Origin: Janibacter limosus NBRC 16128
Lineage (GTDB): Bacteria; Actinomycetota; Actinomycetes; Actinomycetales; Dermatophilaceae
Length of the DNA stretch: 64,000 bases
Direction of reading: 5' to 3'
Assembly: GCF_001570985.1 (NCBI RefSeq)
Contig: NZ_BCSS01000009.1
Coordinates: 1 to 64,000, forward strand
Below are positions 6,309 to 64,000 of the stretch, piece by piece. The notes under the pieces are model-generated. The model was not told the origin of the DNA, ran no database searches, and saw nothing but the letters and a program-made list of their open reading frames with translations. Both the position numbers and the translations under genes were made by a program. The number at the start of each line of letters is the position of its first letter. Position 1 is the first letter of the stretch.

Positions 6309-9144
6309 GCGACCAGGCGTCCTCGTCGTCCTCCTCGGTCCACTCCTCCACGACCTCGGTCCCGATCGGGTCCTCGGGGTAACGGTTGTACGGCTGCGCC
6401 GGTGAGCCCGTGCGCACGTCGATGACATCGGTGTCGTCGGTCACCGCCACCGGGGGCGCGGCGTCGACCGACTCGATCGGCTCGTCATCCTCGTCAGCCG
6501 CTGCGGGCTCCTCGAGCGGCGGCGGGTCCTCTCCCTTCATCAGGGCGAGAGTGGTGGGCAGGTCCTCGGGCGTGATGAGCACATCGCGCGCCTTGGACCC
6601 CTCGGAGGGCCCGACGACGCCGCGCGACTCGAGCAGGTCCATGAGGCGTCCGGCCTTGGCGAAGCCGACGCGCAGTTTGCGCTGGAGCATCGACGTCGAG
6701 CCGAACTGTGTCGTGACGACGAGCTCGGTCGCCTGCAGCAGCACGTCGAGGTCGTCGCCGATGTCCTCGTCGATGTGCTTCTTGGGGGCCTCGGCCGGGG
6801 CTACGTCCTCGCGGTAGACCGGCTTGAGCTGGCCGGTCACGTGCGCGACGACGTCATCGATCTCCGACTCGGTGACCCAGGCGCCCTGGACACGCATCGG
6901 CTTGGACTTGCCCATCGGCAGGAAGAGGGCGTCACCCTGACCGAGCAGCTTCTCCGCACCGGGCTGGTCGAGGACGACCCGGGAGTCGGCGAGCGAGGAG
7001 GTTGCAAAGGCCATGCGCGAGGGCACATTGGCCTTGATCAGACCGGTGACGACGTCCACGGAGGGACGCTGCGTCGCGAGCACCAGGTGGATGCCGGCGG
7101 CACGGGCCAGCTGGGTGATGCGCACGATCGAGTCCTCGACATCGCGCGGAGCGACCATCATCAGGTCGGCGAGCTCGTCGACGATGACGAGCAGGTACGG
7201 GTACGGCTGGATGACCCGCTCGCTGCCGGGGATCGGCTGCACCTTGCCCGCCCGGACGGCCTTGTTGTAGTCGTCGACGTGCTTGTAGCCGGAGCTGGCG
7301 AGGTCGTCGTAGCGCATGTCCATCTCGCGCACGACCCACTGCAGGGCCTCTGCTGCCTTCTTGGCATTGGTGATGATCGGCGTGATCAGGTGCGGGATGC
7401 CCTCGTAGGCCGTCAGCTCCACCCGCTTGGGGTCGACGAGCACCATGCGCACCTCGTCGGGCGTGGACCGCATGAGGATCGAGGTGATCATCGAGTTGAC
7501 GAAGGAGGACTTGCCCGAGCCGGTGGCACCGGCGACGAGGAGGTGGGGCATCTTGGCCAGGTTGGCGATGACATAGCCACCCTCGACGTCCTTGCCGACA
7601 CCCATCACCATCGGGTGCTCGTTGTTGCGCGAGACGTCCGAGCGCAGCACGTCGCCGAGGCAGACCATCTCCTTGTCGGCATTGGGGATCTCGATGCCGA
7701 TGGCGGACTTGCCCGGGATCGGGCTGAGGATGCGCACGTCCGCCGAGGCGACGGCGTAGGCGATGTTCTTGGACAGTGCCGTGACCCGCTCGACCTTGAC
7801 ACCCGGACCGAGCTCGACGACATAGCGGGTGACCGTCGGGCCACGGTGGAAGCCGGTGACATGGGCGTCGATGCCGAACTCGTCGAGCGTGGTGGTCAGG
7901 GCCTCGACGACCTTGTCGTTGGCCGCGGAGCGCTCCTTGTGCGGGGCGCCCGGCTTGAGGTGGCTGCTGTCCGGGAGGGTGTAGGTGACATCGCCGGCCA
8001 GCGCGAGCTGCTCGACGCGCTGGGGCAGCTGCGTCGTGGGCGGGGCCTCGAGGACCGTCTTGTCGGCGGGCTTGATCGGGGCGACGACGGGGTTCTTGGT
8101 CGGCCGCTTCTCACCCGGGCGGGGGCCACCGGTCTCGGCCTGCGGAGTCTCGGCGCTCTCGTCTGCGTCGACGGTGGCAGCAGGCTCACCGGTCGAGGCG
8201 GACCGACGCTTGCGTCCCTTGCCGGCCGGCTGCACGACGGCCGCCTGCTCGAAGGCGGTGTCGCCGTCGCGCTCGCCCGAGAGCTCGTCGTCCGCGGGGT
8301 CGATGGTCCGGCGGCGGGCACGAGTGACCGCAGCCTTGGGCGCGTCGTGACGCGTCTGGACGTCGGTGGTCGTGACATGGCTCGGGACCTCGCCGGTGAA
8401 GGCGGCCCGGATGTAGGCCAGACGCTCCGGGACCTCGTTGAGAGGTGTCCCCGTGAGCAGCAGCAGGCTGAAGAGTCCCAGCAGGACGAGCAGGATGGTG
8501 GCCGGCCAGGGCGTGACCGCCGTGGCCAGGGGGTCGGACGCGAGGAAGCCGAAGATGCCACCGGCATCACGCATCGGGCCCGCTCCGTCGGGTGGCTGCG
8601 GGATGTCCTTGGCGATGTGGGTGAGCCCTGAGGCGGCGAAGAGGCCCATGACCGCGCCGAAGCCCAGCCGCGCGTCAGCCGCGGAGTTGCCCTGCGAGCG
8701 CAGGAGACGCACGCCGAGCAGGAGCAGGACGATGGGCAGGGCATAGGCAACGCGACCGAAGGTGCCGGCGAAGACGGCGTGCACGATGTCACCGAAGGTG
8801 CCCGACAGGCCCCACCACTCCCGCACGGCAACGACGAGGGCCAGCGCCAGCGCCAGGAAGCCCCACCCGTCGCGGCGGTGCTCCGGCTCGATCTCGCTGG
8901 CGCTCTGACCGATGCGTCGCACTCCCGACCCGGTCGCGTGCGCGACGCCCATCCAGGTCTTGTGCACCGCGGCGATGGGCAGCGGCAGGCCCCCTCCGGA
9001 CGCGGATGTGGTGCGGGAGGAGGAGGTCTTCCCCTTGGCAGCGGTCTTGGCAGGAGCCTTGCGACCCGCTGGGCGGGTGCTGCCCTTGGGGCGCGTGGAC
9101 GCGCCCTTGGTGCTGCGCGAGGTGGTCGACGGACGAGTGGCCAT
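6292..9144 (-). CDS. ftsK: DNA translocase FtsK/SpoIIIE
   Basis: A 950-residue septal DNA pump that moves chromosome termini through the closing septum and activates dimer resolution. It has a basic low-complexity N-terminal tail and four transmembrane segments at residues ~80-240. A Pro/Ala/acidic linker follows, then the RecA-like motor with Walker A VAGATGSGKSSF and Walker B PYLLVIVDELADL. The motor also shows the conserved ATQRPSVDVVTGLIKANVPSRMAF. The C-terminal winged-helix gamma domain is visible (TTQFGSTSMLQRKLRVGFAKAGRLMDLLESRGVVG). The ATG at 9144 was chosen because TAGTCT lies 7 nt upstream; the frame extends to 9180 but without support. A short acidic tail follows the gamma domain. 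Confidence 0.96.
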   Translation of the reverse strand: MATRPSTTSRSTKGASTRPKGSTRPAGRKAPAKTAAKGKTSSSRTTSASGGGLPLPIAAVHKTWMGVAHATGSGVRRIGQSASEIEPEHRRDGWGFLALALALVVAVREWWGLSGTFGDIVHAVFAGTFGRVAYALPIVLLLLGVRLLRSQGNSAADARLGFGAVMGLFAASGLTHIAKDIPQPPDGAGPMRDAGGIFGFLASDPLATAVTPWPATILLVLLGLFSLLLLTGTPLNEVPERLAYIRAAFTGEVPSHVTTTDVQTRHDAPKAAVTRARRRTIDPADDELSGERDGDTAFEQAAVVQPAGKGRKRRSASTGEPAATVDADESAETPQAETGGPRPGEKRPTKNPVVAPIKPADKTVLEAPPTTQLPQRVEQLALAGDVTYTLPDSSHLKPGAPHKERSAANDKVVEALTTTLDEFGIDAHVTGFHRGPTVTRYVVELGPGVKVERVTALSKNIAYAVASADVRILSPIPGKSAIGIEIPNADKEMVCLGDVLRSDVSRNNEHPMVMGVGKDVEGGYVIANLAKMPHLLVAGATGSGKSSFVNSMITSILMRSTPDEVRMVLVDPKRVELTAYEGIPHLITPIITNAKKAAEALQWVVREMDMRYDDLASSGYKHVDDYNKAVRAGKVQPIPGSERVIQPYPYLLVIVDELADLMMVAPRDVEDSIVRITQLARAAGIHLVLATQRPSVDVVTGLIKANVPSRMAFATSSLADSRVVLDQPGAEKLLGQGDALFLPMGKSKPMRVQGAWVTESEIDDVVAHVTGQLKPVYREDVAPAEAPKKHIDEDIGDDLDVLLQATELVVTTQFGSTSMLQRKLRVGFAKAGRLMDLLESRGVVGPSEGSKARDVLITPEDLPTTLALMKGEDPPPLEEPAAADEDDEPIESVDAAPPVAVTDDTDVIDVRTGSPAQPYNRYPEDPIGTEVVEEWTEEDDEDAWSLTDRG

Positions 9145-9151
9145 GCTTCGC

Positions 9152-9157
9152 AGACTA
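9152..9157 (-). promoter_or_regulatory. -10 element of leaderless ftsK promoter
   Basis: The minus strand reads TAGTCT, ending 7 nt before the ftsK ATG at 9144. There is no Shine-Dalgarno between them. This supports both a leaderless transcript and the choice of the internal Met as the true start. Confidence 0.5.
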
Positions 9158-9252
9158 GGCGAAAGCCACCCGTGACACACGTGTCACACGCGCACCAGCG
9201 GCCACAGATCCCACCGTCCACAGGCGCGGGCCCACGGTCGACCCCGGCCCGA

Positions 9253-9258
9253 TAGCCT
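9253..9258 (+). promoter_or_regulatory. -10 element of leaderless prepilin-peptidase promoter
   Basis: TAGCCT lies 7 nt before the GTG at 9266, with no Shine-Dalgarno in between. It is one of a family of identically spaced TANNNT hexamers in this window. Confidence 0.48.
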
Positions 9259-9265
9259 CGCCGTC

Positions 9266-9910
9266 GTGGACCCACGGACCCTCGTCGTCATGCTCGCGGC
9301 GCTCGCGTGCGGCGTCCTCGGGTGGTCCTGGCTGCGCACCGGCAGCTACCGACGCCCCGACGAGGACGGCGCCCTCCCCCGCAACCTCTGGGTCCCGGCG
9401 GTCGCTCCCTTCGTCGGGGTGGTCCTGGAGCGCTCCCTCGCGGACCGCTCGTGGCCGGTCCTCCTTGCCCCGCTGCTCCTCGCCATGGTCGGTCTGGTCC
9501 TCGCGGCGGTCGACGCCGACGTGCACCGCCTGCCCAATGCCCTCACCGTGCCGCTCGTGCCGGCGGTGGTGGGTGTGCTCGCCGTCGCCTCCGCCACCAC
9601 CGGCGACTGGGACGCGTTGCTCCGGACCGCCGTCGCGACCGTGCTCGTCGGTGGCGGCAGCATCGCGATGGCCTTCTTCCTCTACGGCCGATCCATCGGG
9701 ATGGGCGACGCCAAGCTGCTCGTCTCGATCGCCCCGACCCTGGCCTGGTTCGGGTGGAGCCACCTCATCGTTGGGATCTGGCTGGGCTTCGCCCTCGGCG
9801 GAATCGTCGCTCTCGCACTGCTGCTCGCTCGCAGGGCGACCCGCTCGACACATCTGGCCTTCGGCCCCTACCTCGTCGCCGGGGCGGTCCTGGCCATCGC
9901 CTTCGTCTGA
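9266..9910 (+). CDS. Prepilin peptidase (A24 family type IV leader peptidase)
   Basis: A 214-residue integral-membrane aspartyl protease with about six hydrophobic helices. The two catalytic aspartates of the A24 family are visible: the first in LAAVDADVHRLPNAL (the family pattern has D followed by the R-x-P-N segment), the second in SIGMGDAKLL (G-x-GD motif). It lacks the N-terminal methyltransferase domain of proteobacterial PilD, as is usual for short actinobacterial enzymes that process Flp/Tad pilins or pseudopilins. No pilin genes are in the window, so its substrates are encoded elsewhere. The start is GTG, predicted leaderless. It ends 74 bp before the SAM riboswitch RNA and is not part of that operon. 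Confidence 0.88.
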   Translation: MDPRTLVVMLAALACGVLGWSWLRTGSYRRPDEDGALPRNLWVPAVAPFVGVVLERSLADRSWPVLLAPLLLAMVGLVLAAVDADVHRLPNALTVPLVPAVVGVLAVASATTGDWDALLRTAVATVLVGGGSIAMAFFLYGRSIGMGDAKLLVSIAPTLAWFGWSHLIVGIWLGFALGGIVALALLLARRATRSTHLAFGPYLVAGAVLAIAFV

Positions 9911-9968
9911 CGTCCCAGGTGGCGAGACATAACTGGTGAGCACTCGACAACGACCCGCCCCGGTGCGC

Positions 9969-9974
9969 TACTGT
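9969..9974 (+). promoter_or_regulatory. Candidate -10 for the SAM riboswitch transcript
   Basis: TACTGT lies about 10 nt before the riboswitch's first paired base at 9985. A TCGACA at 9944-9949 could be the -35, with a rather long 19-bp spacer. The placement fits transcription starting just upstream of the aptamer. Confidence 0.4.
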
Positions 9975-9984
9975 CCTGACCCAA

Positions 9985-10119
9985 GGTCACGAGTACCAGC
10001 GACAAGCCCCGGCTAGCTGGTCGGCAACCCTCCTTCCGCGGTGGGGTGCTCCGGGTGACGACCTGGCCGGCGACGACCAGTTGCCCGGCAAGCGCGGACC
10101 CGTGGCGACGCTCGGGTCC
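9985..10119 (+). ncRNA. SAM-IV riboswitch
   Basis: This leader matches the actinobacterial SAM-IV aptamer almost word for word. P1 arms are GGTCAC (9985-9990) and GTGACGACC (10055-10063). The SAM-I-like core AAGCCCCGGC with GGCAACCCTCC then CGCGGTGGGGTGC lies between, and the SAM-IV-specific distal GGCAAGCGCGGACC (10087-10100) follows. The tail offers two exclusive stems. GGACCC at 10096-10101 can pair with GGGTCC at 10114-10119. That same GGGTCC can instead pair with GGACCC at 10123-10128, directly beside the AGGAG ribosome-binding site (10129-10133). This suggests SAM-dependent translational repression of the gene starting at 10141. Aptamer identity is from memory of the family; the switch mechanism is inference. 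Confidence 0.9.
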
Positions 10120-10140
10120 ACAGGACCCAGGAGCACTGTC

Positions 10141-11355
10141 ATGACCGTTTCCGATGTGCACACCACCACCCTCCTGCCCGAGCTGGTCTCCGCCGGCCTG
10201 AGCTACCGCGACGAGGACGGCTCGGTCATCGACTACGCCCACCTCGACCACGGCGCCACGACTCCTGCCTTCGCCGCCGTCGCCCAGGAGGTCGCCGCCG
10301 CCGCCGTGACCTACTCCTCCGTGCACCGCGGCGCCGGCTTCGCCTCCCGGGTGACGAGCTCGCGCTACGAGCAGGCTCGCGAGAGCGTCGCCGACTTCGT
10401 CGGTGCGCGCGAGGAGGACCAGGTCATCTTCACTCGCAACACGACCGACTCCTTCAACCTGCTGGCGCGGGCGCTGCCTGCGGACACCACGGTCTTCGTC
10501 TTCGCCTCCGAGCACCACGCGGCCCTCCTCCCGTGGGGCGACGCCGTGCGCCTGCCCGTGCCGCACAGCCACGACGAGGCGATCGACCTCCTCGACCAGG
10601 CCCTGCGCAACCACCCCGCCGAGCACCGCCTCGTCGTGGCGACCGGCGCCTCCAATGTCACGGGCGAGCACTGGCCGATCGAGCGGCTGGCTGCCGTGGC
10701 GCACCAGCACGGCGCCCGGTTCGCTCTCGACGCCGCCCAGGTCGCGCCGCACCGTCGCGTCGACATCGGCGCTCTCGGCATCGACTGGGTCGCCTTCAGC
10801 GGCCACAAGATCTACGCACCCTTCGGCGCCGGCGTCCTCGTCGGCCGCAGCGACTGGCTCGACGCGGCCGACCCGTATCTCGCCGGCGGCGGCGCCACGG
10901 CCCGCGTCGGGCTCGACGAGACCGAGTGGACCTGCGGTCCGGCCCGGCACGAGGCCGGCTCCCCCAATGTCCTGGGTGCCGTCGCCCTCGCGACCGCCTG
11001 CGAGATCATCGCCGAGCACGAGCGAGCGATCATCGACCACGAGCAGGCGCTGCGCATCCGCCTCCTCGCCGGCCTCGCCGACATCGACGGCGTGCACGTG
11101 CACACGCTCTTCGGTGGGGGCGATGGCGCACCGGTCGCGACGATCACCGTCGACGGCCACGACAGCGCAGAGGTCGCGCGTGTCCTCGGCGACGACCACG
11201 GCATCGGGGTGCGCGACGGCAAGTTCTGCGCCCACCTGCTCGTCGACGACCTGCTGTCGGAGCACGAGCAGGACACCGCCCTGCGGATCAGCGCCGGCCT
11301 GGGCAGCACGCCCGAGCACATCGACCGACTCCTGGGCGCCCTGCGCTCCCTCTGA
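10141..11355 (+). CDS. Class V aminotransferase, cysteine-desulfurase-like (SufS/Csd type)
   Basis: A 404-residue PLP enzyme of the aminotransferase class V/cysteine desulfurase group. HLDHGATTP near the N-terminus, SSVHRGAGFAS, FTRNTTDSFNLLA and the PLP-lysine region FSGHKIYAPFGAGVLVG are all in order. A candidate active-site Cys sits in VRDGKFCAHLL, where desulfurases carry the persulfide cysteine. The start is the ATG at 10141, 7 nt after an AGGAG; the frame is open further upstream but that is riboswitch RNA. Control by a SAM-IV riboswitch links the enzyme to sulfur or methionine metabolism, for example cysteine/methionine interconversion or sulfur transfer when SAM is scarce. No met genes flank it. 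Desulfurase versus lyase activity cannot be settled from sequence. Confidence 0.85.
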   Translation: MTVSDVHTTTLLPELVSAGLSYRDEDGSVIDYAHLDHGATTPAFAAVAQEVAAAAVTYSSVHRGAGFASRVTSSRYEQARESVADFVGAREEDQVIFTRNTTDSFNLLARALPADTTVFVFASEHHAALLPWGDAVRLPVPHSHDEAIDLLDQALRNHPAEHRLVVATGASNVTGEHWPIERLAAVAHQHGARFALDAAQVAPHRRVDIGALGIDWVAFSGHKIYAPFGAGVLVGRSDWLDAADPYLAGGGATARVGLDETEWTCGPARHEAGSPNVLGAVALATACEIIAEHERAIIDHEQALRIRLLAGLADIDGVHVHTLFGGGDGAPVATITVDGHDSAEVARVLGDDHGIGVRDGKFCAHLLVDDLLSEHEQDTALRISAGLGSTPEHIDRLLGALRSL

Positions 11356-11375
11356 CCGGGCCACCCTCCTCGGGC

Positions 11376-11412
11376 AGGGCGAAGGGAGATCCCGGCAGGC
11401 TCCCTTCGCCCT
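11376..11412. terminator. Bidirectional hairpin between convergent genes
   Basis: A 13-bp perfect stem (AGGGCGAAGGGAG at 11376-11388 and its complement at 11400-11412) has an 11-nt loop. It sits between the convergent aminotransferase and rnj genes. No long T-tract follows on either side, as often seen in high-GC actinobacteria. Confidence 0.65.
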
Positions 11413-11447
11413 CGACCCGAGAATCGAGTGGCGGGTGACGTGCCCGC

Positions 11448-13133
11448 TCAGGCCTCGATGACGACCGGAATGATCATGGGGCGACGACGGATCTTGCCGC
11501 CGACCCAGCCACCGACCGCACGGCGCACGACCTGCTGCAGCTGGTGGGTGTCGGTCGTGCCCTTGCGGGCGGCCTCGTCGAGTGCCGCGATGATCTTGGG
11601 CTTGACCTGGGTGAAGATCTCGTCGCCCTCGGCGAAACCGCGGGCGGTGATCTCGGGGCCGGCGATGATCTTGCCGGTCGAGGAGTCGACGACGATGATC
11701 ACCGAGATGAAGCCCTCGTCGCGCAGGATGCGGCGGTCCTTGAGCAGGTCCTCCGTGGCCTCGCCGACGCTCGACCCGTCGACGTAGACATAGCCGCACG
11801 GCACGGCGCCGACGATCCGGGCCCGACCGTCGATCAGGTCGATGACGACACCGTCCTCGGCCAGCACGACATGGTCGGGGTCGACGCCGGTCTGGATCGC
11901 CAGGTCGGCATTGGCCACGAGGTGACGCCACTCGCCATGGACCGGCATGACATTGCGCGGCTTGACGATGTTGTAGCAGTAGAGCAGCTCACCGGCACTC
12001 GCGTGGCCCGAGACGTGCACCGTGGCATTGCCCTTGTGGACGACGTCGGCGCCCAGTCGCATCAGACCGTTGATGATGCGGTAGACGGCATTTTCGTTGC
12101 CGGGGATCAGGCTGGAGGCGAGCAGCACGGTGTCGCCGTCGCCCACGTCGATGCGGTGGTCACGGTTGGCCATCCGAGACAGTGCCGCCATCGGCTCGCC
12201 TTGACTGCCGGTGCAGATGAGCACGACCTCGTTGTCGGGGTACTGGTCGAGCTTCTTGACGTCGACGAGCACCCGGTCGGGGACATGGAGATACCCCAGG
12301 TCCGCGGCGATGCCCATGTTGCGGACCATCGACCGGCCGACCATCGCCACCTTGCGCCCATTGCGCTCCGCGGCGTCGAGCACCTGCTGGACGCGATGCA
12401 CGTGGCTGGAGAAGCACGCGACGATGATCCGACGCTGCGCGTTGCGGAAGACCGTGTCGATCGCTGGTCCGATGTCACGCTCGGGGGTGGTGAAGCCGGG
12501 CACCTCGGCGTTGGTGGAGTCGGTGAGGAAGAGGTCGACCCCCTCCTCGCCGACCCGCGCGAAGGCGCGCAGGTCGGTCAGCCGCTTGTCCAGGGGCAGC
12601 TGGTCCATCTTGAAGTCACCGGTGTGCAGCAGCGTGCCGCCCGCGGTGCGCACGAAGACGGCCAGCGCGTCGGGGATCGAGTGGTTGACCGCGATGAACT
12701 CGCAGTCGAAGACGCCGAAGGACTCGCGCCCGCCCTCCTTGACCCCGAGGGTGAAGGGCTTGATGCGGTGCTCCTTGAGCTTGGCCTCGATGAGCGCCAG
12801 CGTGAGCATCGAGCCGACGAGCGGGATGTCGGGCTTGTGGCGCAGCAGGTACGGCACGGCGCCGATGTGATCCTCGTGACCGTGCGTGAGGATGATCGCC
12901 TGGACGTCGTCGAGACGATCGAGGATGTACTCGAAGTCCGGCAGGATCAGGTCGACGCCGGGCTGGTGGTCCTCCGGGAAGAGGACGCCGCAGTCGACGA
13001 TGAGCAGCTGCCCCTCGTGCTCGATGACGGTCATGTTGCGCCCGACCTCGCCCAGGCCGCCGAGCGCGACCACGCGCACCGCGCCGGCCTCCAGCGGCGC
13101 TGGCAGGGCGAGGTCCGGGTGGGGGTGACTCAT
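11448..13133 (-). CDS. rnj: Ribonuclease J
   Basis: A 561-residue metallo-beta-lactamase-fold ribonuclease with endo- and 5'-3' exonuclease activity, acting in mRNA decay and rRNA maturation. The metal-binding motif is THGHEDHIGAVPYLL, with further ligands in LHTGDFKMD and VSGHAS. The beta-CASP segment (DSTNAEVPGFTTPERDIG, then FSSHVHRVQQVLDAAERNGRKVA) and the C-terminal dimerisation domain are present. The protein begins with a short extension before VRVVALGGLGEVGRNM, typical of the family. Its start overlaps the dapA stop by 4 bp (ATGA), so the two are translationally coupled, a common actinobacterial dapA-rnj arrangement. Confidence 0.96.
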   Translation of the reverse strand: MSHPHPDLALPAPLEAGAVRVVALGGLGEVGRNMTVIEHEGQLLIVDCGVLFPEDHQPGVDLILPDFEYILDRLDDVQAIILTHGHEDHIGAVPYLLRHKPDIPLVGSMLTLALIEAKLKEHRIKPFTLGVKEGGRESFGVFDCEFIAVNHSIPDALAVFVRTAGGTLLHTGDFKMDQLPLDKRLTDLRAFARVGEEGVDLFLTDSTNAEVPGFTTPERDIGPAIDTVFRNAQRRIIVACFSSHVHRVQQVLDAAERNGRKVAMVGRSMVRNMGIAADLGYLHVPDRVLVDVKKLDQYPDNEVVLICTGSQGEPMAALSRMANRDHRIDVGDGDTVLLASSLIPGNENAVYRIINGLMRLGADVVHKGNATVHVSGHASAGELLYCYNIVKPRNVMPVHGEWRHLVANADLAIQTGVDPDHVVLAEDGVVIDLIDGRARIVGAVPCGYVYVDGSSVGEATEDLLKDRRILRDEGFISVIIVVDSSTGKIIAGPEITARGFAEGDEIFTQVKPKIIAALDEAARKGTTDTHQLQQVVRRAVGGWVGGKIRRRPMIIPVVIEA

Positions 13134-57544: not shown

Positions 57545-60500
57545 TCACAGACGCGTGACCTTGATCCGCACCCGCTCGCTCCCGGAGAGCTCGGTCTCGA
57601 CGACACCATCGCCCAGGGGCAATGCCTCGAGGTTGGGTGCCGAGCCGAACTGACCAGCGAGGGTCTCGTCGACGATCAGGCTCTGGTGGGCGACGGTCGC
57701 CTCCCACACCGGCTGGCTGCCGGTGATCGTCAGGCTGATCCGGTCGGAGACCTCCAGGCCGGCCTGCTTGCGGGCGTCCTGCACGGCGCGGACGACATCG
57801 CGGGCCAGGCCCTCCGCGGCGAGCTCGTCGGTGACCTCGGTGTCGAGGACGATGAAGCCACCCACGGAGCCGGGGAGCATCGCGGTGGCGCGCTGGCTCC
57901 CTTCGTCATCGGCCGCGACGGTCTCGAGCGTGTACTCGCCCTCGACCAGGTCGATGCCGCCAGCGGTCACGGTGCCGTCCTCGGCGACCGACCAGTCCCC
58001 GGACTTGGAGCCCTTGATCGCCACCTGCACCTGCTTGCCCAGTCGCGGGCCGGCGGCGCGGGCGTTGACCGCGAGCTTCTGGCTCACGCCGAACTCCTGC
58101 GCGGCAGAGTCGCCGATGTCGAGCAGGCTCACCTGACGGACGTTGACCTCGTCGGCGATGATCGCGCCGAAGTCGGCGAGCTTCGCCGCGTGGGGCACGA
58201 CGACCGTGAGGTCGCTCAGCGGCAGGCGGTTGCGCAGCTTGTTGGCCTTGCGCAGGCCGCTCGCGGAGCTGCAGACGGCGCGGGCGGTGTCCATCGCCAC
58301 GACGAGGTCGTGGTCGGCGGGCAGCTGCTCGGCCTGCGGCCAGTCGGCGAGGTGCACGGAGCGCTCCCCCGTCAGGCCGCGCCAGATCTCCTCGGTCGTC
58401 AGCGGGAGAAGGGGGGCGGCGACGCGGCAGAGCACCTCGAGCGCCGTGTAGAGAGTGTCGCAGGCGGCCTCCGCGTCAGCGCGGTTGGAGCCCGTGGCCC
58501 AGAAGCGCTCGCGGCTGCGCCGGATGTACCAGTTGGTCAGCACATCGGTGAAGCTGCGGGTCGCGTCGCAGGCACCCGCGATGTCGTAGGCGTCCATGCG
58601 CGCGGTGGCGTCCTCGACGAACTCGCGCAGCTTGGCCAGCAGGTACCGGTCGAGCGGGTCGGTGGAGTCGGTGGACCACTTCGCCTCGTAACCGGACCCG
58701 TCAGCACCCCCGAGCGCGTTGGCGTAGAGGGAGAAGAAGGACCACGAGCTCCACAGCGGGAGCAGGACCTGACGCACGCCCTCGCGGATGCCCTGCTCGG
58801 TGACGACGAGGTTGCCGCCACGCAGGATCGGGCTGGACATGAGGAACCAGCGCATGGCATCGGCGCCGTCGCGGTCGAAGACCTCGGAGACGTCCGGGTA
58901 GTTGCGCAGCGACTTGGACATCTTTTGCCCGTCGTTGCCCAGGACGATCCCGTGGCTGATGACGGAGGAGAAGGCCGGACGGTCGAAGAGCGCGGTGGCC
59001 AGGATGTGCAGCGTGTAGAACCAGCCGCGCGTCTGACCGATGTACTCGACGATGAAGTCGCCCGGGAAGTGGTGCTCGAACCAGTCGGCATTCTCGAAGG
59101 GGTAGTGCACCTGGGCATAGCTCATCGACCCGGAGTCGAACCACACGTCCAGGACGTCCTCGACGCGGCGCATCGTGCTCTTGCCGGTCGGGTCGTCGGG
59201 GTTGGGCCGGGTCAGGTCGTCGACGAAGGGACGGTGCAGGTCGGGCTCACCGTCGGCACCGAGTGGGAGGCGGCCGAAGTCGCGCTCGATCTCCTCGAAG
59301 GAGCCGTAGACGTCCAGACGGGGGTAGGCCGGGTCGTCCGACTTCCACACCGGCACCGGGCTGCCCCAGAAGCGGTTGCGGGTGATCGACCAGTCGCGCG
59401 CATTTTCCAGCCACTTGCCGAACTGACCGTGCTTGACGTGCTCGGGCGTCCAGGTGATCTGCTCGTTGTTGGCGAGCATCTTGTCCTTGATCGCCGTGAC
59501 CTCGACGAACCAGGACTCGACGCCCTTGTAGATCAGCGGCTGGCGGCAGCGCCAGCAGTGCGGGTAGGAGTGCTCGTAGGTCTCGCGGCGCAGCAGGATC
59601 GTGCCGGGGCTGACCGAGTCGGCCTGCTCCCCTCGCGTGGTCGCCTTGAGCGCGTCGATGATCGGGCCATTGGCGTCGAAGACGAGCAGGCCGGCGTAGT
59701 CGGTGACGGGCGCGGTGAAGGTGCCGTCCTTGGCCACCGGCATGACGGCCTCGATGCCCTCACGGTCGGTGACCTCCTTGTCGACCTCACCGAAGGCGCC
59801 GGCGGTGTGGACCATGCCCGTGCCGTCGGTGGTCGTGACGGCGTCGTCCGCGGCGACGACGCGGAAGGCGCCAGCGTGACCGGCGTAGTACGACATCGGC
59901 GGGGTGTAGGTGCGGCCCAGGAGCTGCGCACCGGTGTAGCGGCCGACGATGCTCGGCTCCTCGCCCAGCTCGCGGGCGTAGTGGGTCAGACGGGCCTCGG
60001 CGAGCACGTACTTGGCGGTGCTCCCGTCGACACCGGGGACCGGCGCCTCGACGACGACGTAGTCGATCTCGGAGCCGACCATGACCGCCAGGTGGCTCGG
60101 GAGGGTCCACGGGGTCGTCGTCCAGACGAGCAGGTGGGCGCCGTCGAGCACCGGGTCCTCGCCGGTCGTGTCCATCTGCAGACCGACGGTGACCGCCGGG
60201 TCCTGGCGCTGCTGGTAGACGTCGTCATCCATCCGCAGCTCGTGGTTGGACAGCGGCGTCTCGTCCTGCCAGCAGTACGGCAGCACGCGGAAGCCCTCGT
60301 AGACCAGGCCCTTGTCGTACATCGACTTGAAGGCCCAGATGACCGACTCCATGAAGCCGGGGTTGAGCGTCTTGTAGTCGTTGTCGAAGTCGACCCAGCG
60401 CGCCTGCCGGGTGACGTAGTCACGCCAGTCACCCGTGTACTTCAGCACCGACTCGCGGCAGACCTCGTTGAACTTCTCGATGCCGAGCTCGCGGATCTCG

Positions 60501-60856
60501 TCGGTCGTCTTCAGCCCGAGCTGGCGCATCGCCTCGAGCTCGGCCGGCAGACCGTGGGTGTCCCAGCCGAAGCGCCGCTCGACGCGCTTGCCGCGCATCG
60601 TCTGGTAGCGCGGGACGACGTCCTTGACGTAGCCGGTGAGCAGATGGCCGTAGTGCGGCAGACCGTTGGCGAAGGGGGGTCCGTCGTAGAAGACGAACTC
60701 GTTGGCCCCGTCCTCTCCGGTCTCGCGCGCGTCGATCGAGGCCTGGAAGGTCCCGTCGGCCTCCCAGTAGCTCAGGACCTGCTTCTCGAGGTCGGGAAAG
60801 CTGGGGGACGTGACGACGGTGGTCGCGTCAGTGGTGGAGACCTTGGGGTAGGTCAT
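57545..60856 (-). CDS. ileS: Isoleucyl-tRNA synthetase
   Basis: A class I aminoacyl-tRNA synthetase of about 1103 residues. The HIGH-type motif is [25 protein letters not shown] is [13 protein letters not shown], and the editing domain ([16 protein letters not shown]) and anticodon-binding C-terminal domain are present. It is the long IleS subtype common in actinobacteria. The ATG at 60856 (MTYPKVST) is preferred because GGAG lies 8 nt upstream. Alternative starts are ATG 60889 and GTG 60895, which lack a ribosome-binding site. It is preceded by an Ile-specific T-box riboswitch, so expression should rise when tRNA-Ile is uncharged. Confidence 0.95.
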
Positions 60857-60914
60857 CGCTGCGGCTCCGGGGGTGCTCGGCGTGGTCATTGCCACGAGGA
60901 CGATGGCTGGGCCA

Positions 60915-61087
60915 CCGCGGTACCACCCCGCTTGTCCACCCCCAACGCGAGCGAAGGGGGGAGACCGCTCTTGGTCGATCGGCCGTCACGTGACCATCCG
61001 TCCGGGTCTAGTGAGGATCAACGCCCTGTGTGGGGCCGATCCCGTTCTTCCGGAGGCTCGCCGCTGATGACGGCTCGAGCGCCTGTG
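60915..61087 (-). ncRNA. ileS T-box riboswitch with ultrashort stem I
   Basis: Read on the minus strand. The invariant T-box core GGGGTGGTACCGCGG lies at 60929-60915. About 130 nt upstream, GCTCG (61080-61076) and CGAGC (61060-61056) with an inner CCG/CGG form a short stem whose loop reads TCATCAG. The ATC at 61068-61066 is an isoleucine codon in the specifier position. A stem I that ends at the specifier loop is the actinobacterial ileS type, known to act on translation rather than transcription. A TACACT -10 (61099-61094) would start the RNA near 61087. Which ribosome-binding site is sequestered is unclear; GGGGTG of the T-box can pair with CACCCC just before the ileS GGAG. Confidence 0.85.
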
Positions 61088-61120: not shown

Positions 61121-61225
61121 CGCACTGCCGAGAGGCAGTCGCGACCCAGACGGGGGAAGCCGGTGTGACTCCGGCGCTGACCCGCAACCGTGAGCCGTCC
61201 GTCGGCGAGCCGGAGCACCCATGGA
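61121..61225 (+). ncRNA. Cobalamin (AdoCbl-type) riboswitch
   Basis: The B12-aptamer core is easily read: GGGGGAAGCCGGTGTGACTC starting at 61152, CCGGCGCTGACCCGCAACCG (61171-61190), and the closing GCGAGCCGGAGCACCC (61205-61220). These match the conserved GGGAA...GGTG...A..TCC...GC.G.CCCGC.AC.GT and the 3' C.GA..ACC region. A 6-bp stem with a GAGA tetraloop (61124-61139) opens the RNA. A further hairpin, ACCCGT/ACGGGT (61243-61262), lies in the linker. The gene's AAAGG site (61315-61319) is followed by TCG and could pair with an upstream CGACC (61294-61298), suggesting translational control. Control of downstream genes by B12 is established for the class; the mechanism here is inferred. Confidence 0.93.
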
Positions 61226-61329
61226 TCGCGAGGCTCCGCCACACCCGTCGAGGACCACGGGTCGAGCCCCAGACGCACTCCGCGCCCGGGTCACGACCAC
61301 CAGGTCCCCGCCCGAAAGGTCGCTCCACG
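61226..61329 (+). other. Expression-platform region between riboswitch and first gene
   Basis: This is the remainder of the 473-bp non-coding gap between ileS and the B12 operon. Apart from the ACCCGT/ACGGGT hairpin (61243-61262) and the possible ribosome-binding-site pairing noted with the riboswitch, I see no gene and no T-tract terminator. Confidence 0.45.
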
Positions 61330-62604
61330 ATGCGTTCGCTCCCTTCGCTCGCCCTCACCGCCACGATCGGCGTCGCCGGTCTGGCCCTGGCACCCGCTGC
61401 CTCGGCGGCCACTCCCGACGACTCCGTCGCCTACCTCGCCGCCCAGCTCGAGGCCGGCGACGACCGACTCGTCGTCGAGTCGGGCGGACAGTCCTATGAC
61501 GACCTCGGGCTGACCATTGACGCGGTCCTGGGCATGTCAGCGGCTGGTACCGGGGGCGACGCCTCCGCGGCGGCCACCGACTACGTCGTCGCCAATGCCG
61601 GCAGCTACTACGGCTTCGGCGAGGAGATCTACTCCGCGGCCAACGGCAAGCTGCTCACCTTCGCCAGCGCCCGTGGCCTGGACCCCCGCTCCCTCGGCGG
61701 TGTCGACCTCGTCGCGCAGCAGCTTTCGCTCGAGGCCGACACCGGCCAGTTCGTCGACCAGTCCCAGTGGGGCGACTACTCCAACACCCTGGGCCAGTCC
61801 TTCGGGATCATCGGCCTGAAGCGGGCCGGCACCAACCCCACGCCCGCATCGATCGACTTCCTCCTCGCGCAGCAGTGCGACGACGGCGGCTTCAGCCTCG
61901 AGTTCAAGGACGGCTGCATCTCCGACCCCGACGCCACCTCGACGGCCGTCCAGGCGCTCGACGTCGTCGGCGGCCACGACGCCGCGGTGCAGGACGCGGC
62001 CGACTACCTCGAGGCTCGCCAGGACAGCAGCGGCGGTGTCGGCGGCGGCTCGACCACCGAGGGCAGCAATGCCAACAGCACCGGGCTCGCCGCGACCGCC
62101 CTGCGCATCGCCGGGCGCGACGACACCCGCGCCCAGGCCCTCGCCTATCTCGACACGCTGACCTTCGGGTGCGACACCCCCGCACTCGCCGGCGCCGTCG
62201 CCTACAACCGGGCCGACTTCGACGCTGCCGTGGCCAAGGGAGCCCAGGCGGCGCCCGACGGCACCATCACCCGCTCCACCACCCAGGCACTGCTCGGCCG
62301 CACCGACCAGTCCTATGCCACCGTCACCTCCGCCGGCCAGGCCGCGGCCACCCCGGACCTCGACTGCGCCGCGCCGGCCCCCGGCGACGACACGGACGCC
62401 GGCTCCGGCGACAGCGACGACACGGGCACGGGCACGGGCACGGGCACGGATGAGCCCGTCGCCCAGCCCGAGATCCCCGCGGTCGTGCAGACCGACGGGG
62501 TCACCTCCACCACCCCCGTCTGGGCCCTGGGTCTGGGCACCGGCCTCCTCGCCGTCGGCGTGACCCTCGCGGCGCGGCGCCGGGCGGTTGCGCGGGTGCG
62601 CTGA
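61330..62604 (+). CDS. Secreted alpha-barrel protein resembling the cobalamin-binding alpha domain of intrinsic factor/transcobalamin
   Basis: A 424-residue exported protein. The signal peptide (MRSLPSLALTATIGVAGLAL, cleavage after ASA near residue 27) is followed by helical repeats of the prenyltransferase/squalene-cyclase type. These are visible as SFGIIGLKRAG, QQCDDGGFSLEF (residues 181-192, the QDGGF-like turn), DATSTAVQALDVVGGHDAA, then SSGGVGGG and NSTGLAATALRIAG. Four cysteines (183, 196, 281, 346) could form disulfides. A Gly/Asp/Thr linker (~350-375) leads to a C-terminal membrane helix (WALGLGTGLLAVGVTLAA) and an Arg-rich tail, so the protein is surface anchored; no LPxTG is seen. 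The same toroid binds B12 in animal carriers, and the gene sits under a B12 riboswitch. It could instead be an unrelated repeat protein; the context argues otherwise. Confidence 0.8.
   Translation: MRSLPSLALTATIGVAGLALAPAASAATPDDSVAYLAAQLEAGDDRLVVESGGQSYDDLGLTIDAVLGMSAAGTGGDASAAATDYVVANAGSYYGFGEEIYSAANGKLLTFASARGLDPRSLGGVDLVAQQLSLEADTGQFVDQSQWGDYSNTLGQSFGIIGLKRAGTNPTPASIDFLLAQQCDDGGFSLEFKDGCISDPDATSTAVQALDVVGGHDAAVQDAADYLEARQDSSGGVGGGSTTEGSNANSTGLAATALRIAGRDDTRAQALAYLDTLTFGCDTPALAGAVAYNRADFDAAVAKGAQAAPDGTITRSTTQALLGRTDQSYATVTSAGQAAATPDLDCAAPAPGDDTDAGSGDSDDTGTGTGTGTDEPVAQPEIPAVVQTDGVTSTTPVWALGLGTGLLAVGVTLAARRRAVARVR
62421..62449 (+). repeat. Short tandem repeat encoding a Thr-Gly linker
   Basis: About five copies of CACGGG in tandem encode alternating Thr-Gly in the linker before the membrane anchor. 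Such slippage-prone DNA could vary linker length between strains. Confidence 0.7.
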
Positions 62605-63527
62605 TGCGGCGACTGCTCGCCGGTCTCGGCGTGACCGCTCTCCTCACGGGGGGCGGTCTCGCCCTGTCCTCCCCCGCCCAGGCGGCTGCCTGCAATGGCA
62701 CGAGCGGCGTGACCGTCGTGGTGCAGAGCGCCACGTCGACCGATGTGCGCTGCGCGGCGGGCGACCCCGCCACGGCCGGTGCGGCCCTGGAGTCCGCCGG
62801 CTTCGCGGTCGAGCGCGTGCAGAACCAGCCCGGCGCCGTCTGCACGATCAACGGACTGCCCAACATCTCCTGCGGTCGCATGCCCCCGGCCGACAACTAC
62901 TGGGCCTTCCACCACGCGAGCGCGGGTGGGCCCTGGCAGTACTCCAGCTCCGGCATCTACCTGCACGACCCGGCACCGGGCAGCGCCGTGGCATTCCGCC
63001 TGGGCACCAATGCGTCCCCGAGCGTGGCGCCGCCCGCGGCAGCCTCGACGTCGACGGCGAAGCCCTCGTCCAGCACCATGGCTGCACCGACGACCTCCGC
63101 ACCGCGGGCGAGCACCGACCCTGCCGGCGGTGGATCCACCGCGGCACCCAGCGGCGGCTCGACACAGGGCCCGGGGCGCACGTCGTCGCAGGGTGCTCCT
63201 GCTGCGTCGTCCACCCAGGGCACGTCAGCCGCCTCCTCGGCGGCCTCGTCGTCGGCCCGGGCCTCCGCGTCCAAGGACAAGGCCTCGAAGAAGGCCGAGG
63301 CGGCAGCCGTCCGGAAGAAGGCCAAGGACAAGAAGTCCTCGACGTCCAGCACCTCCGGCACCGCGACCGCGTCCTCGACGAGCGGCGTCGATGGTGAGAC
63401 CACCAGTGCCGCAGGGGCCGAGTCCGACTCCGGCAGCGGCGCGCTCGTGCCCACCGCCATCGGTGGCGGTTTGCTCGTCGTCCTCGGCGGCGGCGCCCTC
63501 ACCATGGCACGACGCCGGGAACACTGA
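62604..63527 (+). CDS. Secreted, anchored DUF4430-like protein (transcobalamin beta-domain type)
   Basis: A 307-residue exported protein. The signal peptide (MRRLLAGLGVTALLTGGGLA) is cleaved near residue 28. Residues ~30-135 form one compact domain with four cysteines: TVVVQSATSTDVRC, GAALESAGFAVERV, VCTINGLPNISCGRMPP, and the aromatic closing block NYWAFHHASAGGPWQYSSSGI. This pattern fits DUF4430, the domain that caps the cobalamin site in intrinsic factor and transcobalamin. Residues ~140-280 are a Ser/Thr/Ala/Lys-rich stalk, probably spanning the wall. The end is a membrane helix (TAIGGGLLVVLGGGALTM) with ARRREH. The ATG shares a base with the upstream stop (TGATG). Likely role: second half of a B12 receptor with the alpha-barrel protein. 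Confidence 0.78.
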   Translation: MRRLLAGLGVTALLTGGGLALSSPAQAAACNGTSGVTVVVQSATSTDVRCAAGDPATAGAALESAGFAVERVQNQPGAVCTINGLPNISCGRMPPADNYWAFHHASAGGPWQYSSSGIYLHDPAPGSAVAFRLGTNASPSVAPPAAASTSTAKPSSSTMAAPTTSAPRASTDPAGGGSTAAPSGGSTQGPGRTSSQGAPAASSTQGTSAASSAASSSARASASKDKASKKAEAAAVRKKAKDKKSSTSSTSGTATASSTSGVDGETTSAAGAESDSGSGALVPTAIGGGLLVVLGGGALTMARRREH

Positions 63528-63535
63528 CCCCCTTC

Positions 63536-64000
63536 GTGCTCTCCTCGACACCGCGGGCCGTCCACCCCGGGGCCTGGTGGCTCTGGGCCATCGGCCTCGC
63601 GGTGGCGGTCTCGCAGACGACCAACCCGCTCGTGCTGCTGCTCGCGGCGGCGGTGGTGACCTTCGTCGTCATGGCCCGACGGGCCAACACCCCGTGGGCG
63701 CGCGCCTTCACCCTCTATGCCGTGCTCGGCGGCTTCATCATCGTCCTGCGGGTGCTCCTGCACATCCTCGTCGGCCTCAAGTGGGGCGAGATCGTCCTGG
63801 TGCCGCTGCCCGAGATCGAGCTGCCGGGCTGGGCCGCCGGGATCAACCTGCTGGGCGACCTGCGACTCGAGGGACTGCTCGCGGCCCTCTTCGAGGGGAT
63901 GCGGCTGGCCGCGATGATCCTGTGCGTCGGCGCCGCCAATGCCCTGGCCGACCCCAAGCGGCTGCTCGCCGCACTGCCGGGCGCCCTGCAGGAGATCGGG
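63536..64000 (+). CDS. ECF transporter T component (EcfT/CbiQ-like), truncated by window end
   Basis: The frame is open from GTG 63536 to the right edge (155 codons). The product is a membrane protein with at least four helices (WWLWAIGLAVAVSQ, NPLVLLLAAAVVTFVVMARR, FTLYAVLGGFIIVLRVLL, GMRLAAMILCVGAANAL). The last visible segment, NALADPKRLLAALPGALQEIG, is the EcfT/CbiQ coupling-helix region (N-x-L-x-D-P-x-R-L-L-x-x-L-P). The T subunit couples ABC ATPases to a substrate-binding S subunit. Placed after two B12-binder-like proteins and under a B12 riboswitch, it predicts an ECF cobalamin transporter whose ATPases and S subunit lie beyond 64000. It starts 8 bp after the preceding stop. Confidence 0.85.
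   Translation, partial: MLSSTPRAVHPGAWWLWAIGLAVAVSQTTNPLVLLLAAAVVTFVVMARRANTPWARAFTLYAVLGGFIIVLRVLLHILVGLKWGEIVLVPLPEIELPGWAAGINLLGDLRLEGLLAALFEGMRLAAMILCVGAANALADPKRLLAALPGALQEIG

Follow-up and report, generated by a model that had tools for sequence, protein, structure and literature searches.

The stretch of DNA analysed here (the window) covers the first 64,000 nucleotides of contig NZ_BCSS01000009.1 of Janibacter limosus NBRC 16128, and its last part holds an operon with a predicted role in the uptake of vitamin B12 (cobalamin). On the + strand, a cobalamin riboswitch is followed by the genes of two putatively exported proteins, P1 and P2, and by that of EcfT, a subunit of energy-coupling factor (ECF) transporters (Table 1); the operon runs past the window end. 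An initial annotation, made from the sequence alone, had described two exported, C-terminally anchored proteins one base apart; the hydrophobic stretches at both termini of each protein agree with this, while the spacing does not, as the two reading frames overlap by one base (TGATG). Beyond position 64000, where the initial annotation had suggested looking for ATPases and an S subunit, lie the genes of a two-domain ECF ATPase (contig positions 64660-66285, with ABC_tran matched in two stretches) and of a 264-residue membrane protein of S type (66282-67076). The folding energy of the leader is nothing unusual (z -0.19), and no promoter or terminator consensus was seen at the operon; the named relatives by P1 include Janibacter anophelis, with 82% identity.

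Table 1. Features of the operon, in window coordinates.
Feature	Position	Strand	Basis or remark
Cobalamin riboswitch	61124..61242 (Rfam core 61153-61220)	+	RF00174; clade model R1
P1, 424 aa	61330..62604	+	ATG at 61330, stop ends 62604
P1 modelled stretch: toroid, 13 helices	61405..62376	+	AlphaFold2
P2, 307 aa	62604..63527	+	ATG at 62604, stop ends 63527
P2 beta domain: beta-grasp resembling that of transcobalamin, with four conserved Cys	62682..63023	+	AlphaFold2, VIA-align, profile match to DUF4430
P2 low-complexity stalk	63024..63443	+	Sequence composition
EcfT (CbiQ-type)	63536..64000, cut by window end; gene ends at contig 64663	+	GTG start; CbiQ PF02361

P1 is built of a signal peptide, an alpha/alpha toroid (residues ~26-340), a linker rich in Thr, Gly and Asp, a membrane segment (397-415) and an Arg-rich tail; P2 has a signal peptide, the beta domain, a stalk of Ser, Ala, Thr and Lys, and a C-terminal membrane segment (about 281-299). 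In both proteins, the hydropathy peaks near the two ends fit the signal peptide and the C-terminal membrane segment. The Ser/Thr/Lys stalk and the four Cys of the initial annotation are borne out: the former spans 140 residues (141-280) with 25% Ser, 13% Thr and 7% Lys, and P2 has exactly four Cys (30, 50, 80 and 90), of which three are invariant and one is at least 90% conserved over 46 homologues, W100 and W111 being invariant as well; this set was reduced from 86 by dropping short domains and those at or below 75 bits, and by clustering at 70%. The conserved polar residues of P1 are D58, D64, Q156, D199, D201, N249 and Q319. As for anchoring, when matches below 80 bits and three duplicate loci (L009, L010 and L088) are left out, as in all the motif, topology and fusion counts given here, a C-terminal membrane segment occurs in 62 of 75 P1 and in 73 of 85 P2 proteins, and a sortase-like LP/AxTG string in 28 and 3 of them, respectively; P1 and P2 of the window look membrane-anchored and lack this string, and P2 scores 18.4 bits with a sortase-tail model, below the cut-off of 27. 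It is plausible that both proteins span the cell wall.

The riboswitch, called clear in the initial annotation, scores 33.8 bits with RF00174, above the Rfam gathering threshold of 31.5, and its extended form scores 106.4 bits with R1, a clade model trained on 18 leaders from 17 distinct places, the window site itself among them. Over 86 loci fetched from relatives and numbered with an L, R1 gave 79 sites above 55 bits, the next-best reaching 17.6 bits; 78 of the 79 precede P1 or P2, and the remaining one (L123) precedes a P2 match under the 50-bit cut. Once the three duplicates were dropped, domains below 50 bits ignored and three contig-edge heads set aside, the riboswitch was found before 74 of the 84 operon heads with enough upstream sequence; 17 of these 74 trained R1, and without the training heads the count is 57 of 67, among relatives that are not independent of each other. 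The pair, therefore, occurs mostly with a B12 riboswitch, a point on which the initial annotation had let its reading depend. With RF00174 itself (E <= 0.1), a site adjoins P1 in 27 of the 30 top-ranking P1 loci, and 18 of these 27 sites are at or above gathering. Outside the family, a hand-picked set of 20 loci was used, each from a different one of the 54 P2-positive phylum genomes. Immediately ahead of the P1/P2 block, 15 of them have a riboswitch site scoring 37 bits or more, which in L184 precedes a DUF4430 gene that leads the block; the sites of L179 and L183 are weak, and none was found in L192, L193 and L182 (3 of 20), the last with only ~300 bases upstream.

Regarding the folds, AlphaFold2 models of P1 and P2 were built from 5 and 7 sequences, respectively, and compared with solved structures by VIA-align, which is a re-ranking of Foldseek's top 1000 and not a search. 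The P1 model (pLDDT 79.7, pTM 0.84) agrees with the helical toroid that the initial annotation had read in protein one, and it has the toroid fold of the transcobalamin type, aligning with the alpha domains of transcobalamin and intrinsic factor over 232-250 residues (Z 21.1-21.6, rmsd 2.8-3.5). The P2 model is a compact beta domain (pLDDT 90.4, pTM 0.85), with strands at model residues 9-15 and 20-26, a helix at 32-38, and further strands at 43-46, 49-56, 74-79, 86-88 and 102-107; this agrees with the fold of the transcobalamin-like clade of the SLBB superfamily, namely a helix that follows strand 2 and is itself followed by a beta-hairpin insert, which in P2 appears to sit within residues 43-56. 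The top 15 VIA-align entries for P2 are 3u7z (Z 10.6) and 14 entries of transcobalamin, haptocorrin or intrinsic factor (Z 9.7-10.5; 92-95 residues, rmsd 2.5-3.0), and the next entry has a Z of only 6.6, so the beta-domain fold of these carriers is recovered. Profile-profile comparison also points to homology of P2 with DUF4430: hhalign gave a score of 34.6 and a probability of 74.6 against a profile of 31 DUF4430 domains above the Pfam cut-off, taken from other Actinomycetota, to be compared with 16.85 for the best of 60 column shuffles, 17.57 for the best of 26 unrelated windows and 9.86 for the reversed profile.

The EcfT that the initial annotation had placed behind the protein pair matches, as a full protein, CbiQ PF02361 with 45.4 bits against a cut-off of 25; with the ECF ATPase, it accounts for the EcfT and ATPase parts of an ECF transporter, in an operon with CbiQ/CbiO-like genes. 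The ECF S-component model PF12822 matches 24 of 33 homologues of the S-type protein (E <= 0.1), with the genome's own copy not among them, and the profile of this protein found no match among solved chains at E <= 1. Over the 86 loci, the usual order by profiles is P1-P2-EcfT-EcfA-S, with EcfT, EcfA and S following P2 in most of them, and EcfT adjoins P2 in 18 of the 20 phylum loci. In L049 (5253-6852) the double ECF ATPase is broken over two frames, by a frameshift or a sequencing error.

P1 and P2 also occur together. In 149 family genomes, P1 was found in 62, P2 in 67 and both in 58 (E <= 0.001; Fisher p 1.3e-26, which ignores kinship), and at the same E-value the P2 profile matched 54 of 296 phylum genomes (39 of 199 genera), though only weakly or in part in nine of these genomes. 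Furthermore, the two domains share one reading frame in nine relatives, five with the alpha-beta order of transcobalamin (L069, L105, L175, L176 and L191) and four with the reverse (L011, L065, L080 and L120); fusions in both orders argue that the two halves work together. N-terminal beta domains had first been suspected in many long P1 frames, and are detectable before the toroid in only the four. In L069, a hydrophobic stretch at the domain junction looks like a relic signal peptide, so the processing of this chain is uncertain. In two class-level relatives, a P2-EcfT-EcfA-S-P1 run has behind it a protein with a DUF4430 domain above the Pfam cut-off. Among single loci, L011, from an Acidimicrobiales metagenome-assembled genome, has its beta-toroid fusion (ORF 9365-11578) extended by a long further C-terminal region and standing back to back with a P2-EcfT-EcfA-S run, with no riboswitch by R1; in L046 (G132), P1 is interrupted, with residues 1-31 and 26-424 ~1.3 kb apart and the riboswitch upstream of the gap.

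Thus, the observation that started this work is real and goes well beyond chance, and the gene order, the riboswitch, the folds, the conservation of the pair and the natural fusions, all established by computation, form the basis for its interpretation: P1 and P2 probably make up a corrinoid receptor of the transcobalamin type, each forming one half, separately anchored in the membrane and feeding an ECF importer, with ligand binding as a prediction. As judged from the riboswitch family, a fall in intracellular cobalamin would permit expression of the operon; the beta domain of P2 and the toroid of P1 would then enclose extracellular cobalamin, or a related corrinoid, which would be delivered to the membrane and imported there by EcfT, the double ATPase and the S-type protein together. 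The initial annotation had proposed two halves displayed as separate receptors that clamp B12 for an ECF importer; the results support the likeness to transcobalamin, the split, the anchoring, the riboswitch and the ECF link, and we infer the ligand, the order of binding, the cobalamin-induced clamping and the hand-over to the S protein. A receptor in two parts makes physical sense, since the domains of human transcobalamin, expressed separately, assemble in a cobalamin-dependent manner, according to part of PMC5599065.

Several results weigh against this interpretation, and those on P1 come first. Squalene-hopene cyclases, with Z up to 24.6, score higher than transcobalamin in VIA-align, so the fold of P1 fits transcobalamin but is not specific for it. 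A profile of 49 P1 rows (from 78, after dropping P1 at or below 170 bits and clustering at 65%) found cyclases and complement C4, and no transcobalamin; cyclases are therefore the top matches by profile as well as by fold. The Pfam model Cobalamin_bind (PF01122), proposed in the initial annotation as a check on P1, did not match it, and it touched 1 of the 49 homologues (E 0.0019); over the 296 phylum genomes it gave 0 matches, with the control sequences equally silent, so that this last search shows little. P1 does match the SCO2321 family (NF053823, NCBIfam), with 105.9 bits and below the cut-off of 300, a family named only as a membrane protein. The cyclase matches could suggest that P1 is an exported toroid enzyme of the terpene-cyclase or glycan-hydrolase type, incidentally paired with P2, but this is barely credible: the acid motif of terpene cyclases, DxDDT, is present in none of 75 P1, the site equivalent to the cyclase DxDD reads D.D.T in 65 of them and lacks even this in 10, and the four D.DD strings of the set lie elsewhere in the domain or in the linker. 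In addition, P1 is exported, linked to P2, the riboswitch and the ECF genes, and fused to the beta domain in nine frames.

As for P2, Pfam assigns it no family at E <= 1, not even DUF4430 (PF14478), and over the 46 homologues there is a single marginal match to DUF4430 (E 0.053), with two to DUF6777 (best 6.6e-4); hence the DUF4430-like domain of the initial annotation holds by profile-profile comparison and by fold, and not by Pfam. The hhalign probability is only moderate, the profile of the 46 P2 domains found nothing usable in the PDB, and Foldseek alone gave a best E of 0.28, with transcobalamin absent from the 50 best rows, which are weak and include, for example, ubiquitin-like and superantigen-like proteins. 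The DUF4430 profile itself has a weak link to the beta domains of transcobalamin-1 and -2 (E 0.014 and 0.017), and an unrelated SUI1 factor ranks above them (E 0.0082); the fold comparison carries more weight.

The host genome adds further counterpoints. Genes for corrin synthesis are present (CobN, a nitroreductase/CobT-like fusion, tetrapyrrole methylases and CobO), as are four more cobalamin riboswitches, one at G000:C10:50014-50195 near a FecCD permease and three on G000:C40, where the neighbours are CobN, CbiM and a chelatase-like AAA protein; with these genes, another importer may serve B12. Such a host could use the operon to import, in place of B12 itself, a precursor of cobalamin or a different cobamide (cobinamide, or the lower-ligand base) as a complement to its own synthesis, the riboswitch-linked FecCD permease being then the possible B12 importer. 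This alternative is conceivable, if on balance doubtful: 'B12 or its precursors' was the proposal in part of the article by Burroughs et al. 2007 (PMC1796856) for related systems, and the human beta domain binds cobinamide, as given in part of PMC5599065; instead, a lone base would seem to need no corrin-sized toroid and beta clamp.

Import of cobalt or another metal, with P1 and P2 as metal-binding or cell-wall accessory proteins, is quite improbable, even if EcfT is of the CbiQ type and 3u7z, a relative with a solved structure, bears the title 'putative metal binding protein'. None of the 33 members of the S family scanned matches CbiM, and the CbiM gene stands elsewhere in the host, beside its own riboswitch; together with the FecCD permease and the corrin genes, it indicates that cobalt import is probably covered elsewhere. 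Moreover, no metal importer that uses a toroid and a transcobalamin beta fold is known to us.

Some of the riboswitch results also count against a B12 receptor. A cobalamin riboswitch exists somewhere in 148 of the 149 family genomes, so only its position is informative; of the ten operon heads that lack one by R1, three (L059, L117 and L118) have none directly before them and are not read as true operon starts, and the remaining seven are outright absences (L011 twice, L052, L054, L075, L109 and L113). At Rfam gathering level, only one of 5 named loci had a call, and there was none in the 20 short loci that surround canonical DUF4430 genes in other members of the phylum, though the operon heads of these loci may not be covered. 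A further point concerns the pairing: P2-EcfT-EcfA occurs without an adjoining P1 in L109-L114, L116, L119, L121-L123, L180, L185, L192 and L193, as would be expected if P1 and P2 acted independently, either as two receptors or in a relay where P1 captures and P2 passes on, with no closure on one ligand. This is unlikely, as P1 stands elsewhere in the genome in the five members of genus g28 (L110-L114) and in G089 (L109), and the existence of fusions in either order speaks for joint action. In g28, both separated pieces have a riboswitch in three of the five genomes (L053/L110, L055/L114 and L061/L112), only the P2 piece has it in L054/L111, and neither has it in L052/L113.

The outline of a corrinoid receptor made of P1 and P2 is not new. 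In part of the article by Burroughs et al. 2007 (PMC1796856), the authors delineated the transcobalamin-like beta-grasp clade, with toroids fused on either side and operons with CbiO-/CbiQ-like genes, and predicted the scavenging of B12 or its precursors; the main holders given there are low-GC Gram-positives and planctomycetes, and these hosts usually lack B12 synthesis. The system of Janibacter shares with that clade the secreted or anchored beta-grasp domain, the toroid partner in either order and the CbiQ/CbiO operons. It differs in being actinobacterial, in having the halves on two proteins, in a beta domain too divergent for the Pfam DUF4430 model, in a host with corrin-synthesis genes where those of the clade usually lack the key ones, and in the riboswitch that heads the operon, of which section 7 part 1 of PMC1796856 makes no mention. 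Therefore, what is new is the split, separately anchored actinobacterial form, its beta domain missed by Pfam, the riboswitch counts and the corrin-making host. In line with the initial annotation, no experimental description of such a Gram-positive system was found in searches of the open-licence PMC library.

Among characterised systems, animal intrinsic factor, transcobalamin and haptocorrin share an alpha/alpha toroid and a beta domain of matching folds. In these carriers both domains are in one soluble chain, taken up by endocytosis as described in part of PMC5599065, whereas here two anchored chains, in two ORFs joined in one frame only in the nine relatives, stand beside an ECF importer, and P1 has no PF01122 match. 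In PMC9963975, a Lacticaseibacillus rhamnosus protein is already called 'Additional lipoprotein component of putative cobalamin ECF transporter'. The vitamin B12 transporter ECF-CbrT is the subject of PMC5997447. Like the system described here, it has EcfT and ECF ATPases, with an S component that is putative in Janibacter, and B12 is a likely substrate. To our knowledge, ECF-CbrT works without extracellular transcobalamin-like partners; BtuG and BtuH of Bacteroides are surface lipoproteins that bind B12 for an importer, and they are different proteins of an outer-membrane system.

Other elements were noted in the window and in the relatives. Upstream of the operon, on the - strand, a T-box-like leader (60893-61049; 21.2 bits, below the gathering of 93, with a GGUGGUACCGCG box) precedes the divergent ORF 57545-60895, presumably an isoleucyl-tRNA synthetase from its translation; a SAM-IV riboswitch is at 9985-10100 on the + strand (109.6 bits). 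Giant ORFs (851-1944 aa) lie near DUF4430 genes in nine phylum loci (L158-L163 and L168-L170), with ECF ATPase or S matches nearby in five of the nine (L159-L162 and L170). Six of the giants were scanned with Pfam (L159-L163 and L168) and have 1-3 DUF4430 stretches each, five of them with beta-propeller-type matches, mostly weak (best PQQ_2, 60.9 bits, in L168). An AdoCbl-II riboswitch (42.3 bits) is at the head of the giant in L161; weaker R1 sites occur at L161, L159, L160, L168 and L170, with no confirmation by Rfam in L159, L160 and L170. Are these giants a different build of a B12 surface receptor? Finally, L166 (16 kb fetched) has a DUF4430 gene (8598-9345, - strand) unaccompanied by matches to ECF genes or P1, and directly upstream an R1 riboswitch match of 77.4 bits that is not called at Rfam gathering.

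In conclusion, and only tentatively, the system could extend across Actinomycetota, with B12 captured by a cobalamin-induced heterodimer of two anchored proteins and passed to a dedicated ECF importer; the split form may resemble the ancestor of the one-chain carriers, and bacteria would have fused the halves repeatedly, in both orders. How to identify B12 transport systems in human gut genomes 'remains an open problem' according to part of PMC6593275, and the operon is a testable B12-transport candidate for another large group (P2 in 54 of the 296 phylum genomes). Its two halves are small and purifiable, so their ligand-driven assembly is directly measurable. The operon connects a bacterial importer with the B12 carriers of animals, and hints at a way in which some bacteria may capture the vitamin.

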